The notes beneath the pieces were generated by a model. That model was given only the letters and a program-made list of their open reading frames with translations, had not been told where the DNA came from and ran no database searches. From the NCBI RefSeq assembly GCF_009363655.1, contig NZ_CP045394.1, forward strand, positions 107,914 through 171,913: DNA of 64,000 nt, read 5' to 3'. Every line of letters starts with the position of its first letter. Position 1 is the first letter of the stretch. The translations under genes were made by a program, and so were the position numbers. Source of the stretch: Roseovarius sp. THAF27. Its GTDB lineage: Bacteria > Pseudomonadota > Alphaproteobacteria > Rhodobacterales > Rhodobacteraceae. Of the stretch, positions 15,715-64,000 are shown one piece after another.

Positions 15715-16638
15715 ATGCTAACTGCCGCCCTTCCGTTTCCAGACATCGGCCACGAAGTCTTTTCGATTGATATTTGGGGTTTTCACCTCGCGCTCCGATG
15801 GTACGCGCTCGCGTACATCGTCGGCATCGTAACAGGTTGGCGAATTTGCGTTCGGACCTTCGGGCGTCCTGCGCTCTGGTCGGATGCTGGGCCACCTATG
15901 AAACCCGCGCAGTTGGATGAACTGCTCACGTGGATTATTCTCGGCGTCATCATCGGTGGGCGTCTTGGTTTTGTCCTGTTCTACGAGCCGCAATACTACC
16001 TGAAAAACCCTTTGGAAATCCTGATGGTCTGGCAGGGCGGCATGTCCTTCCATGGTGGGTTTCTCGGGGTGACGGTCGCTGGGCTTGTCTTCTGTATCCG
16101 CCAGCGCGCGTCGTTTCTTGGAACTGCGGACATCTTGGCTCTGGCCACGCCACCCGGGTTGTTACTCGGACGTCTCGCCAATTTCACCAATAACGAGCTC
16201 TGGGGACGGCCGACTGATGTTCCATGGGCGGTGATCTTCCCCGGAGAGGCCGCGCAAGCCTGCCCAGGCGTGGTGGGGCTATGTGCGCGGCACCCGTCGC
16301 AGCTTTACGAAGCGTTGCTTGAAGGAGTGGTGCTGGGCATCCTTATGCTGGTTCTGGCATGGCGAAAGGGATGGCTGAAAAGGCCCGGTGCCCTGACAGG
16401 AGTGTTTCTTGCGGGCTATGGCATGTCCAGGGCCTTAGTCGAGTTCTTCAGGCAGCCGGATTTGCAATTCGTGAGTGAGGATAACCCAATCGGACACGCC
16501 CTGCATTTCGGAACCTGGGGACTAACGATGGGGCAGGCGTTGTCGCTTCCAATGATCTTTGCCGGACTGGCATTGATCTGTTGGGCTTTTCGCATGCAAC
16601 AGCGAGATCGCGACCAGAAGACAACCGAGACTGTGTAA
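15715..16638 (+). CDS. lgt: prolipoprotein diacylglyceryl transferase Lgt
   Basis: 307 residues, several transmembrane helices. It carries the Lgt signature GRLANFTNNELWGRPTDVPW and HPSQLYEALLEG, with the conserved Arg/Asn and His positions of the active site. Lgt transfers diacylglycerol from phosphatidylglycerol to the lipobox cysteine, the first step of lipoprotein maturation. It is the last gene of a unit behind a CueR-like promoter. Its position in a metal island, with lspA and lnt 46 kb away, suggests an accessory copy; the housekeeping copy would be elsewhere in the genome. Confidence 0.93.
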   Translation: MLTAALPFPDIGHEVFSIDIWGFHLALRWYALAYIVGIVTGWRICVRTFGRPALWSDAGPPMKPAQLDELLTWIILGVIIGGRLGFVLFYEPQYYLKNPLEILMVWQGGMSFHGGFLGVTVAGLVFCIRQRASFLGTADILALATPPGLLLGRLANFTNNELWGRPTDVPWAVIFPGEAAQACPGVVGLCARHPSQLYEALLEGVVLGILMLVLAWRKGWLKRPGALTGVFLAGYGMSRALVEFFRQPDLQFVSEDNPIGHALHFGTWGLTMGQALSLPMIFAGLALICWAFRMQQRDRDQKTTETV

Positions 16639-16682
16639 GTTTCGATCCGCTCGAACCTATGCAATGAAACGCTGCGCGCCGT

Positions 16683-17115
16683 TTATCCCAAAACGAGAAT
16701 CAAGTCATCCGACAGCGAAAGGTCCGGAATGTGAAGGTTCTCTGGTGCGAGTCCCTTTCTGATGCGCCCGGCGGGGTCATAATGCGAGCCGTGGCAAGGG
16801 CAAAACCAACCTCCAAAATCGCCGGAGCCTTTTCCAAGCGGAACGCATCCCAAGTGAGTGCAAACGCCAATCATGATCAAATACTCTTCGCGGCCGGGAA
16901 CTGCCCGGTGCTCATCGGTCGCAGGCACGTCCCCGTCGAAGTTGGGGTTTCTTGCGATCGCATCAGGTAGGTCGGCGACACTTTCGGAACGTGCCGCAGA
17001 AATTTCCTCTTCAGTTCGATAGCGGATGAACACCGGTTTTCCCCGCTACTTGACAGTGAGTTGCGTGCCAGGTGTCAGCTCGGAAATATCCACGCGGATC
17101 CTGAGCAAAGCCCTG
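16683..17115 (-). pseudogene. petA: Rieske iron-sulfur subunit (PetA) C-terminal fragment with a nonsense codon
   Basis: The cluster-binding motifs are intact (VCTHLGCVPLG and FCPCHGSHYD), as is the C-terminal fold. The Tat/anchor N-terminus is absent. The codon after TQLTVK, normally Trp in this family's KWRGKPVF segment, is TAG (17046-17048). Upstream of about 17115 the frame runs directly into YfcC-like sequence, so a deletion joined two unrelated genes. A working bc1 Rieske protein cannot be made from this locus. Confidence 0.85.
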
Positions 17116-61950: not shown

Positions 61951-61954
61951 GCCA

Positions 61955-62437
61955 ATGCCAACAAACAAAGTATCTCCGGTGATCGGCGTCTTTGCGGCGC
62001 TTGCAGCGTTCGCGATTGATCAGATCATAAAAGCCATTGTCATTGCGAATGCCGCCACTCTAAGCGCCGGGGTCCCGGTGTTTCCGGGATTCAACCTCGT
62101 CTTTTATCGTAATGACGGCGTGACTTTCGGGATGCTGGGCGGCGCGCCGTGGTGGAGCCTCATCGCTCTCGCTCTTGCCATCTGTGTTTGGCTAGGGGTT
62201 ATGCTGTTTCGCGCCGACAATGTGGTCGAAACACTTGCCTATGGCGCGATCATTGGCGGAGCTTTGGGTAATGTCATCGATCGTGTGCGGTATCGGGCCG
62301 TAACAGACTTTCTCGATTTCTATATTGGCACAACACATTGGCCTGCCTTCAACATGGCCGATGTATTTGTCGTCAGTGGCGTGGGGCTCTTGCTCGCTGC
62401 GCCATGGATCAGCGTGCGGCGTCCGATCAAATCGTGA
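61955..62437 (+). CDS. lspA: lipoprotein signal peptidase LspA (signal peptidase II)
   Basis: 160 residues from the ATG at 61955, four transmembrane helices. The catalytic aspartates are in GGALGNVIDRVRYRAVTDFL and FNMADVFVVSG, and FNLVFYRNDGVTFGML is the conserved N-V-R/N region. LspA removes the signal peptide from diacylglyceryl prolipoproteins. lspA genes accompany heavy-metal pumps in other mobile islands. It overlaps lnt. Confidence 0.93.
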   Translation: MPTNKVSPVIGVFAALAAFAIDQIIKAIVIANAATLSAGVPVFPGFNLVFYRNDGVTFGMLGGAPWWSLIALALAICVWLGVMLFRADNVVETLAYGAIIGGALGNVIDRVRYRAVTDFLDFYIGTTHWPAFNMADVFVVSGVGLLLAAPWISVRRPIKS

Positions 62438-64000
62438 AGCCGGAAATTCTGAACCGCATAGCACTGCTCCACCGTTTGCTTTCGCGGATGACGCTTGGTT
62501 TCGTCGCCGGGGCGCTGACCGTTCTGACTTTCCCGCCTTTCTCGCTTCTCCTGCTTGTTCCCGTTGCCTATTCCGCGTTGTTTGTCGGTCTTCGCGGTCT
62601 CTCCTTCGGGCGCGCTTTCCTCGTCGGCTGGGCGTTTGGTCTTGGCCAGTTCGGTTTCGGGATTTCGTGGATTGCAGAGAGTTTCTACGTCGAGGGCGAG
62701 CGGTTCGGGGCGATGGCGATCCCGGCCGTCGCGGGATTGTCCGCAGGTCTCGCAATTTTCCCAGCCATTGCCGCAGCGCTCTTCGCCGAAATCGCGCGGC
62801 GCGGAGCCATGGGCAGTCTCTTGGCCTGCCTCGTGTTCGCGACCTCCTGGACCGTGGCAGAGTGGTTGCGTGGTCACGTTCTGACGGGGTTTCCCTGGAA
62901 CCTCGCCGGCTACGCACTTGTAGACTACGCCGCCCTTCGCCAGACCGCCGCCTGGGTCGGAAGCTATGGGCTAAGCTTTCTCACCGTGTTCGTCGCGGCA
63001 CTTCCCGGCGCGGCTGTCATGACGTCCGGGCGGCAACGATTGACCGTTTCGCTCATGGCGCTGGCCGGCATCGCGACGATGTGGGCTGTCGGCACGCTTC
63101 GCCTCCAGTCGGATGCACAACAGCCACCCGGTGTCGACCTGCGCATCGTCCAGGGCAACATTCCACAAGAGGAGAAATGGGCGCCCGAGAACCGCGAGGC
63201 GACCTTCGCGCGCTATCTTGAGCTTTCAACCCAGCCCGGCGATTTCGACGTTCTTCTTTGGCCGGAAACCGCCTTTCCGGGTTTCCTCGATGAGGATACG
63301 GAGGCACGGGATCGCATTGCCGCTGCGCTACCAGACGGCAGGGTGCTGCTCACCGGTGTGCCGGACCGTGTACCGAGCGAAGATGGCACCCGATATTTCA
63401 ACACGGTCCAGGCTTTTGGCGCGACCGGCAGAATCCTGACCGGATACGCGAAACACCATCTCGTACCCTTCGGCGAATATGTGCCATTCCGTGGCTGGTT
63501 GCCCATCGAGCGGCTCACGGCGGGTCTGGGCGATTTTACGCCCGGACCGGGCCCGCGAACGCTTGCGCTTCCGGGTGTGCCGCTGGTCGCCGTGGCGATC
63601 TGCTATGAGATCATCTTCCCAGGTCATGTAGTCGACGACCTGTTCCGACCCGACTGGATCTTCAACGCGACAAACGATGCCTGGTTTGGCAGCAGCATCG
63701 GACCTGAGCAGCATCTGGCTTCCGCACGCATGCGCGCCATAGAGGAAGGCCTTCCTGTCATTCGAGCCGCGAATACAGGCATCTCTGCGGTCATCGACGC
63801 GAACGGAGAGATCGTTGCGCGGCTCGAGACCGGCGAAACGGGCATCATCGACGCTAGTCTGCCCTCCGCGCGGCCGCCGACACTCTACGCGAGCTTCGGG
63901 GACTGGATGCTGCTGGCGCTCATCTTGGCTTCGTGGAGCTGGGCAATGGCGACCAATGCGACGGCGCGCTATCGCCGCATGAGAAACACCGTCATGCAAA
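62434..64000 (+). CDS. lnt: apolipoprotein N-acyltransferase Lnt, 3' end beyond the window
   Basis: At least 522 residues, open to the window end. The GTG at 62434 overlaps the lspA stop by 4 bases; an ATG at 62404 in the same frame is an alternative. About six N-terminal helices (FVAGALTVLTFPPFSLLLLV) precede a nitrilase-like domain with the triad Glu in LWPETAFPG, Lys in YAKHHLVPFGEYVP and Cys in VAICYEIIFP. Lnt adds the third acyl chain to lipoproteins. With Lgt and LspA it completes the maturation pathway in this island. Confidence 0.92.
   Translation, partial: MKPEILNRIALLHRLLSRMTLGFVAGALTVLTFPPFSLLLLVPVAYSALFVGLRGLSFGRAFLVGWAFGLGQFGFGISWIAESFYVEGERFGAMAIPAVAGLSAGLAIFPAIAAALFAEIARRGAMGSLLACLVFATSWTVAEWLRGHVLTGFPWNLAGYALVDYAALRQTAAWVGSYGLSFLTVFVAALPGAAVMTSGRQRLTVSLMALAGIATMWAVGTLRLQSDAQQPPGVDLRIVQGNIPQEEKWAPENREATFARYLELSTQPGDFDVLLWPETAFPGFLDEDTEARDRIAAALPDGRVLLTGVPDRVPSEDGTRYFNTVQAFGATGRILTGYAKHHLVPFGEYVPFRGWLPIERLTAGLGDFTPGPGPRTLALPGVPLVAVAICYEIIFPGHVVDDLFRPDWIFNATNDAWFGSSIGPEQHLASARMRAIEEGLPVIRAANTGISAVIDANGEIVARLETGETGIIDASLPSARPPTLYASFGDWMLLALILASWSWAMATNATARYRRMRNTVMQ

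Follow-up and report, generated by a model that had tools for sequence, protein, structure and literature searches.

Spare lgt, lspA and lnt genes behind metal-sensor-type promoters on a metal island of Roseovarius sp. THAF27

Introduction

Metal-linked spare copies of lspA (signal peptidase II) and a spare lgt (prolipoprotein diacylglyceryl transferase) in Gram-positive bacteria, lgt2, are already known. Here we describe lgt, lspA and lnt (apolipoprotein N-acyltransferase) together on a metal island of Roseovarius sp. THAF27, a finding that extends these cases. The window analyzed is a stretch of 64,000 nucleotides, positions 107914-171913 of the 171,913-bp contig C2, its right edge being the contig end.

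The lgt2-lit2 copper operon of Listeria and Enterococcus resembles the island in having a second lgt together with copper-resistance genes on a mobile element, and copper-induced lit2 is co-transcribed with lgt2 (PMC8275575). It differs in being Gram-positive, in having the transacylase Lit2 as second enzyme and in the lack of LspA and Lnt; moreover, the second lgt is copper-induced there, whereas copper induction of the island lgt is predicted (PMC8275575). The island set, on the other hand, belongs to diderm bacteria, comprises all three classical enzymes and appears to answer to two different metal sensors. In the pbr lead-resistance operon the spare signal peptidase II, PbrC, is likewise under a MerR-family divalent-metal sensor, with the half-site CTAGAGG (PMC3431237, PMC1526738), but there LspA stands alone with the ATPase PbrA and with PbrB, whereas lnt and the Sco, PCuAC and Dsb genes accompany the island lspA. 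The pbr model assigns PbrC no role, yet cites the suggestion that PbrC matures a phosphatase (PMC3431237).

Mesorhizobium, also an alphaproteobacterium, has a spare signal peptidase II gene near cadA that is up more than 3-fold with zinc in two strains, as determined by RNA-seq; its authors read this as PbrC-like metal precipitation, and the accessible text reports neither lgt nor lnt (PMC3668242). Listeria lspB is a spare LspA-type gene under control of the cadmium regulator CadC (as cited in PMC7840573), but is an lspA alone, in a Gram-positive. On a metal-resistance plasmid of Martelella a signal peptidase II gene lies beside a thiol-disulfide interchange gene (PMC5613091). In Escherichia coli cutE is lnt, and Lnt and lipoprotein maturation matter there for copper tolerance, although this is a single housekeeping lnt and not an induced spare (PMC6538781). 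A roseobacter was found to contain CutE, copy unspecified, during growth at 1 and 5 mM copper (PMC6308992).

A preliminary description of this DNA had named copper attack on the lipobox cysteine as the link between copper and lipoprotein maturation, citing Lit2 as a Gram-positive parallel. The published work agrees on both points: copper treatment of E. coli mirrors Lgt depletion, the step at which copper blocks maturation being that of Lgt, and the authors proposed that copper is bound by the lipobox cysteine (PMC6538781); the Lit2 case is real and includes the second, copper-induced lgt, and copper binds the lipopeptide amino terminus (PMC8275575). Our literature search, with subscription journals mostly outside it, found no report of metal islands in Gram-negative bacteria that combine Lgt, LspA and Lnt, and no mention of lgt in copper islands was found in the accessible parts of PMC10455571, PMC4686621 and PMC8478169.

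Results

The island genes are additional to the housekeeping copies

The relevant features of the window are as follows.
15715-16638, + strand: island lgt, prolipoprotein diacylglyceryl transferase, the second copy in the genome, identified by family scores and catalytic positions
12442-12472, + strand: promoter box of the CueR/copA type in front of the lgt unit, matching the copA-type pattern throughout, 19-bp spacer
12521-15703, + strand: genes for DUF6010, a VTT-domain protein, an unknown protein and an APC permease, between box and lgt
61934-62437, + strand: lspA of the island, encoding signal peptidase II, both catalytic Asp kept; the genome has three copies
62434-64000, + strand: island lnt, apolipoprotein N-acyltransferase, cut off where window and contig end, with the E, C, Y and E positions kept
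56523-61950, + strand: operon partners of lspA and lnt, namely Sco, DsbB, DsbA-like, PCuAC, Sco, M23 peptidase, DUF411 and ZIP
56456-56487, + strand: CadR/PbrR-like operator-promoter upstream of the first Sco gene, CCTCTAG-CGG-CTAGAGG dyad, 19-bp spacer
55923-56420, - strand: regulator of the MerR family, oriented divergently to the Sco operon and having the divalent-ion cysteine

The products of all three genes pass the cut-offs of the curated families (Lgt 227 bits against TIGR00544, cut-off 118.9; LspA 109.6 against TIGR00077, cut-off 73.95; the in-window part of Lnt 315.5 against TIGR00546, cut-off 132.9), and Lgt scores 236.7 bits against PF01790 (cut-off 24.9). The genome of 4,461,527 bases in six contigs contains two lgt, three lspA and three lnt genes, one of each on the largest contig, C1 (4,195,115 bp). 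This confirms the separate housekeeping copies that the preliminary description had wanted searched for, which are likewise present in relatives, and rules out that the island genes are the only copies in the genome; they are additional.

The lgt gene closes a packed unit, DUF6010 (12521) - VTT (12960) - unknown (13640) - APC permease (14381) - lgt, with intergenic gaps of 10, -4, 0 and 11 bases. The lspA and lnt genes are the last two of the operon Sco-DsbB-DsbA-PCuAC-Sco-M23-DUF411-ZIP-lspA-lnt, which carries no genes for the PbrA ATPase or the PbrB phosphatase and is thus not a pbr operon. This is the place in the operon that had been described; the coordinates 61955-64000 were slightly off, since lspA starts at 61934 and lnt likely starts with the GTG at 62434, overlapping the lspA stop. 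The lnt frame runs past 64000, and its C-terminus lies beyond the contig end.

Beyond what had been described, the third lspA-lnt pair of the genome is part of a second whole Sco-...-lspA-lnt operon outside the window, at C2:90768-98300 (L010). Beside it lie another regulator of the same type as that at 55923-56420 and operators of the same pattern (L009:13549 with one mismatch, L010:745). Genes for DsbD and CcmF/G/H/I adjoin this operon (L009:13009-20000 and L010:1-8300, i.e., C2:83009-98300), CcmG/H/I being named by eye.

The promoters point to two metal sensors

The box at 12442, TTGAGCTTCCATTAGCTGGAAGCCCTAGGGT, matches TTGA-N-CTTCC-N7-GGAAG with a 19-bp spacer without mismatch, which we take to be the pattern of copA-type CueR promoters and on which its assignment as a CueR-type Cu(I) promoter is based. 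A scan of the whole window for TTG and TA separated by 19 or 20 bp with an internal dyad gave four matches, including 12442 and, at 56457, TTGAACCTCTAGCGGCTAGAGGATGTATCCG; 20 shuffles averaged 2.05. The argument that the promoters are real because they are rare was therefore dropped, the number alone being within chance. Both are credible because of their conservation, as four further loci (L286-L289) have the lgt box about 3.3 kb ahead of lgt and the other operator recurs in homologous operons. The earlier placement of lgt at the end of a unit behind a CueR-like promoter (12442-12472) and of a MerR-type promoter ahead of the Sco/PCuAC operon (56457-56487) thus held. Allowing two mismatches, the CueR pattern was found elsewhere in the window at 31450 (+), 35618 (+) and 48957 (-), the second of these heading a further set:
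35618-38627, + strand: CueR-type box (at 35618, without mismatch), copper P1B ATPase, cueR

The product of this cueR (38208-38627) passes the NCBIfam CueR cut-off with 158.7 bits (cut-off 147.4), and the gene is a candidate source of the regulator acting at 12442.

The sequence upstream of Sco, CTTGAACCTCTAGCGGCTAGAGGATGTATCC, is of another kind. Its half-site CTAGAGG, in the operator at 56456, is the same as that carried by the pbrA promoter primers (PMC3431237). The divergent regulator is below the NCBIfam cut-offs of CueR, ZntR, CadR-PbrR and MerR (110.6 against 151.45 for CadR-PbrR, 100.9 against 167.95 for ZntR), and it has a cysteine where the island CueR has a serine. Cysteine at this position is found in regulators of +2 ions and separates sensors of +2 from those of +1 ions (PMC3431237); it is present in all 19 aligned homologous regulators, the window's own included. 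With a different dyad and Cys instead of Ser, the lspA-lnt operon does not have a CueR-type promoter; the cysteine and the matching half-site place regulator and operator with the CadR-PbrR/ZntR-like kind. The regulator is therefore predicted to work like a sensor of this type even though it falls outside the NCBIfam families. Because of the operator kind and the regulator cysteine (PMC3431237), Cu(I) is predicted to drive lgt, and Cd/Pb/Zn-type ions lspA and lnt. Copper control of all three genes was rejected on the same features. Of the preliminary picture of a complete maturation set in copper-resistance operons, the spare copies of all three genes on one metal island stand and copper control of lspA-lnt does not.

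The lspA-lnt operon and its operator are widely conserved

Island-type lnt is present in 27 of 292 genomes of the family, at 31 places, 20 of which were examined in context (the window's own included). The order Sco-DsbB-DsbA-PCuAC-Sco-M23 is kept in 19 of these 20 loci, as is a divergent regulator, and lspA lies immediately 5' of lnt in 18 (L237 is without lspA, and L240 has another order). The operator pattern was matched in 20/20 loci (18 exactly, L236 and L240 with one mismatch), a count that is descriptive as the pattern was written after viewing the same loci; the informative part is its absence from 214 kb of housekeeping-lgt neighborhoods on both strands. The operator lies upstream of the first Sco gene in 19 loci; in L240 its place is between lnt and a Sco match that follows it. 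The arrangement is old, since several homologous operons are down to 53-65% identity with that of the window. Further extra lspA genes occur in relatives in long open frames (about 200-450 aa) not adjacent to lnt (L176-L180, L195).

Ahead of lgt, a copper box recurs in relatives and is typical of a minority of island loci. For the commonest type, DUF302-lgt-ATPase-APC, no CueR-type box was found, and when the 3.4 kb preceding lgt were scanned strictly for MerR-type promoters at 29 loci, the window included, only that of the window was matched. Elsewhere a two-component pair is divergent from the lgt unit.

Extra lgt genes mostly lie beside metal genes

Two or more Lgt matches were found in 19 of 296 family genomes. 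The context of the extra lgt was read at 16 loci from 14 of the 19 (genomes G326, G378, G379 and G387 lay outside this reading) and compared with 11 housekeeping lgt loci, from ten of the same genomes and the window's own. A P1B-type (heavy-metal) ATPase is encoded in the stretch at 16/16 extra and 0/11 housekeeping loci (Fisher p 7.7e-8). Among the best 80 loci in named genomes (of 200 encoding a relative), 62 have a P1B ATPase. Eight are at 64-66% identity, carry no marker gene and look like housekeeping loci. The remaining ten, some on short contigs, have other cluster genes, e.g., DUF302, VTT, CueR, multicopper oxidase or a two-component pair; one of them, L347, has only a methyltransferase. 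Lgt is 100% identical on plasmids of Roseovarius sp. THAF8 and THAF9 and on a contig of Roseovarius atlanticus R12B.

By annotation, copper or heavy-metal ATPase genes lie near lgt in 11 of 15 plasmid stretches (L042-L045, L050-L055, L059), and L048 has lgt with MerT and a multicopper oxidase. The remaining three are without such genes: L046, L047, which has an ars operon about 3 kb away, and L060. On "plasmid" records that are very large or resemble chromosomes (L049, L060, L244, L245), lgt and lnt were taken as housekeeping copies. In a draw across the phylum, two Lgt matches occurred in 4 of 249 genomes: in G606 the extra lgt is beside CopB and a two-component pair, and in G598 and G634, assemblies listed with 2% and 8% contamination, both copies are without metal genes. 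G708 from this draw, and G004 and G193 from a class draw, also have two Lgt and lay outside the reading.

Island-type lnt occurs in 11 of the 19 extra-lgt genomes compared with 27 of 292 overall (p 2.3e-8 if the draws share genomes, the smaller draw being assumed to lie inside the larger). The genes lgt, lspA and lnt are all on one contig in G000, G269 (two contigs), G380, G384, G437, G439 and G467. In 20 genomes searched with family models, lspA is present in two to four copies in all, and 19 have two or three lnt, G317 having a single one of a weaker-scoring kind.

Similar combinations are present on other plasmids. Dinoroseobacter shibae DFL 12 is among the bacteria with plasmids of this sort. 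Halomonas plasmid pTHAF12_b has copAB-lgt plus cadR-...-lnt-lspA, and pHAL1 has regulator-ATPase-DsbG-TVP38-DsbE-lgt in one stretch and ATPase-lspA-lnt-L,D-transpeptidase-CtaG-PCuAC-SCO in another. On Psychrobacter and Moraxella plasmids lgt is accompanied by a two-component pair for heavy metals, by copAB and by tatABC (L044:21151-22743, L045:18099-19691), and in Psychrobacter also by lspA. A Roseomonas plasmid has ATPase-UppP-MBL-lnt-CcmF-DsbE, and a Paraburkholderia plasmid MerR-SecY-lgt with a metal ATPase some kilobases further on. The secY gene (L059:5469-6803) and the Roseomonas undecaprenyl-diphosphate phosphatase gene (L058:5764-6591) are further envelope genes in metal islands. In a Rhodobacteraceae metagenome-assembled genome (L354:10001-20873), lgt is found with two P1B ATPase genes and a block lspA-ZIP-DUF411-M23-Sco-PCuAC-DsbA lies about 5 kb away, with no lnt detected there.

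Trees, catalytic residues and selection

The comparison of island and housekeeping phylogenies proposed earlier was made with quick trees with SH-aLRT support and no bootstrap. In the Lnt tree 23 alphaproteobacterial island rows form one clade (SH-aLRT 98) apart from 18 housekeeping rows; a Roseomonas row is among housekeeping Lnt (support 81), and three gammaproteobacterial rows are placed elsewhere. In the Lgt tree, 22 island rows from Rhodobacterales and from some plasmids of Hyphomicrobiales group as a clade (SH-aLRT 98) nested within Rhodobacterales housekeeping Lgt, with the island Lgt of Moraxellaceae, Halomonas, Paraburkholderia, Sphingobium and Aliiroseovarius outside it. In an extended tree of 119 rows with more gammaproteobacterial housekeeping rows, the island label needs six changes, and well-supported branches force six, although some could in principle be losses. 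The LspA tree, of short sequences with long branches, forces no more than one. The Lgt tree suggests that lgt was recruited to metal neighborhoods separately in alpha-, beta- and gammaproteobacteria.

The catalytic positions scored, in what we take to be E. coli numbering, are kept in all island rows: Lgt H103, R143, N146, G154 and R239 in 29/29, Lnt E267, C387, Y388 and E389 in 27/27, and the two LspA Asp in 32/32. Lnt K335 and E343 were left unscored as the motif is missing from the reference row. The genes are under purifying selection, with dN/dS between 0.065 and 0.261 in the 17 usable of 20 comparisons, several of them with dS above 1; the three dropped were all lspA (L229 and L234 with dN above 2, taken as script faults, and L241 with saturated dS).

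Other genes of the island

Two further features encode lipobox proteins and are possible substrates of the enzymes.
454-966, - strand: lipobox protein of the L,D-transpeptidase kind, with relatives beside lnt in some homologous operons
44038-45498, - strand: lipobox protein (LAAC lipobox) taken, by eye, as outer-membrane factor

An annotated L,D-transpeptidase gene follows or overlaps lnt in plasmid records. The island has three genes of this kind (454-966, 3859-4521 and 4988-5635), and such genes recur around island lgt in relatives. Copper reportedly inhibits L,D-transpeptidases (title of Peters 2018). A cupredoxin gene and a multicopper oxidase end are duplicated nearly identically (7533-9122 and 41895-44025), the oxidase copy at 8305-9122 being truncated. 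At 17046-17934 two fragments match different parts of the DcuC family model and are apparently remnants of a broken transporter gene.

Discussion

We consider it somewhat probable that lipoprotein maturation is present on the plasmid as a second, metal-regulated pathway which is itself a resistance function, acting by dosage. Thiophilic metals in the periplasm would capture the reactive cysteine of nascent lipoproteins and stall their maturation. CueR would sense Cu(I) and raise Lgt, the step that copper blocks, and the regulator at 55923 would sense divalent ions and raise LspA and Lnt along with further periplasmic helpers that depend on cysteine (Sco, PCuAC, DsbA, DsbB). The enzymes themselves would be ordinary and would probably act through a higher dose: additional Lgt would shorten the life of the free thiol, and more LspA and Lnt would carry lipoproteins past the diacyl-cysteine stage with its free amino group, itself able to bind metal.

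In its favor are the additional copies, the P1B ATPase genes near extra lgt, the kept operon order and operator, the kept catalytic residues, the low dN/dS, the six forced changes on the Lgt tree, the two Halomonas plasmids with all three genes and the published links between metals and lipoprotein maturation. Several observations weigh against this explanation. The lspA-lnt operator is not of the copper type, though the operon partners are copper chaperones. A CueR-type box with a -10 element lies within 3.5 kb upstream of lgt in just 13 of 88 island loci (0/19 controls), a count of loci and not of events as some contigs are included twice, e.g., L101 and L348. Some extra lgt genes lie outside metal operons (L046, L047, G598, G634): that of L046 (8950-9741), on a Vibrio campbellii plasmid, is in an array resembling gene cassettes, and that of L047 (8944-9825), on a Klebsiella grimontii plasmid, has a glycosidase gene as its neighbor. 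The number of cysteines does not consistently indicate metal-proofing, being higher in island than in housekeeping Lgt (mean 3.94 vs 2.62) and Lnt (3.10 vs 2.39) and lower only in LspA (1.68 vs 2.71); the idea that the island enzymes are stripped of cysteine was rejected on these numbers. Finally, the island encodes lipoproteins of its own, which would suit the alternative of dedicated substrates.

According to this alternative, the extra enzymes serve only island lipoproteins made in bulk (the lipobox L,D-transpeptidase, the outer-membrane factor, a lipobox Sco), a PbrC-like role in the maturation of a resistance protein included. Four lipobox candidates in the window, L009 and L010, the lipobox L,D-transpeptidase relatives adjoining lnt and the proposal that PbrC helps to mature a phosphatase (PMC3431237) are in its favor, but the candidates are few and of kinds matured by housekeeping enzymes in other bacteria, and no single island lipoprotein accompanied lgt across all lineages examined. 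We judge it unlikely. Replacement by metal-proof enzymes that resist inhibition and take over when the housekeeping ones fail would agree with the separate island Lnt clade and the fewer cysteines of island LspA; it is made improbable by the identity of the tested catalytic residues, the Lnt cysteine included, by the cysteine-richer island Lgt and Lnt, and by the published view that the substrate is what copper acts on (PMC6538781, PMC8275575). That spare essential genes are passengers, carried by chance or stabilizing the plasmid and of no use in metal resistance, would fit their wide spread on plasmids (135 records with an Lgt and 223 with an Lnt match, some chromosome-like), but is very improbable given the constant operon partners, the purifying selection, the repeated independent recruitment to neighborhoods of one kind, the conserved metal-type operators and the housekeeping copies still present. 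Protection from an LspA-directed antibiotic such as globomycin through extra target, for which an additional lspA would presumably be a plausible route, deserves hardly any credence as it leaves lgt, lnt and the metal-type operators unexplained.

The metal-regulated second pathway may also be part of something larger. We put forward only tentatively, and with more doubt than belief, that Gram-negative metal islands hold a metal-inducible second envelope assembly line, in which Lgt, LspA and Lnt would work with Dsb, Ccm, Sco/PCuAC and L,D-transpeptidases, and in other lineages with TatABC, SecY or undecaprenyl-diphosphate phosphatase. The defense would then lie on the target side, with the maturation enzymes as a kinetic escort of metal-binding intermediates, extra enzyme consuming faster the free thiol before Lgt and the free amine beside the thioether after LspA, and copper and divalent metals would call different steps. 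Such an escort would account for lspA and lnt being found mostly together.

Export, oxidation and sequestration make up the usual picture of metal resistance. On this island an entire essential pathway of protein modification appears to be duplicated under metal-sensor-type control, and similar sets came together independently in other bacteria, which suggests that keeping lipoprotein maturation running is an overlooked part of metal resistance. If induction and rescue hold true, lipoprotein maturation would be a recognized natural target of copper and divalent metals, and there would be a rationale for the recurrence, in metal operons, of spare signal peptidase II genes like pbrC.

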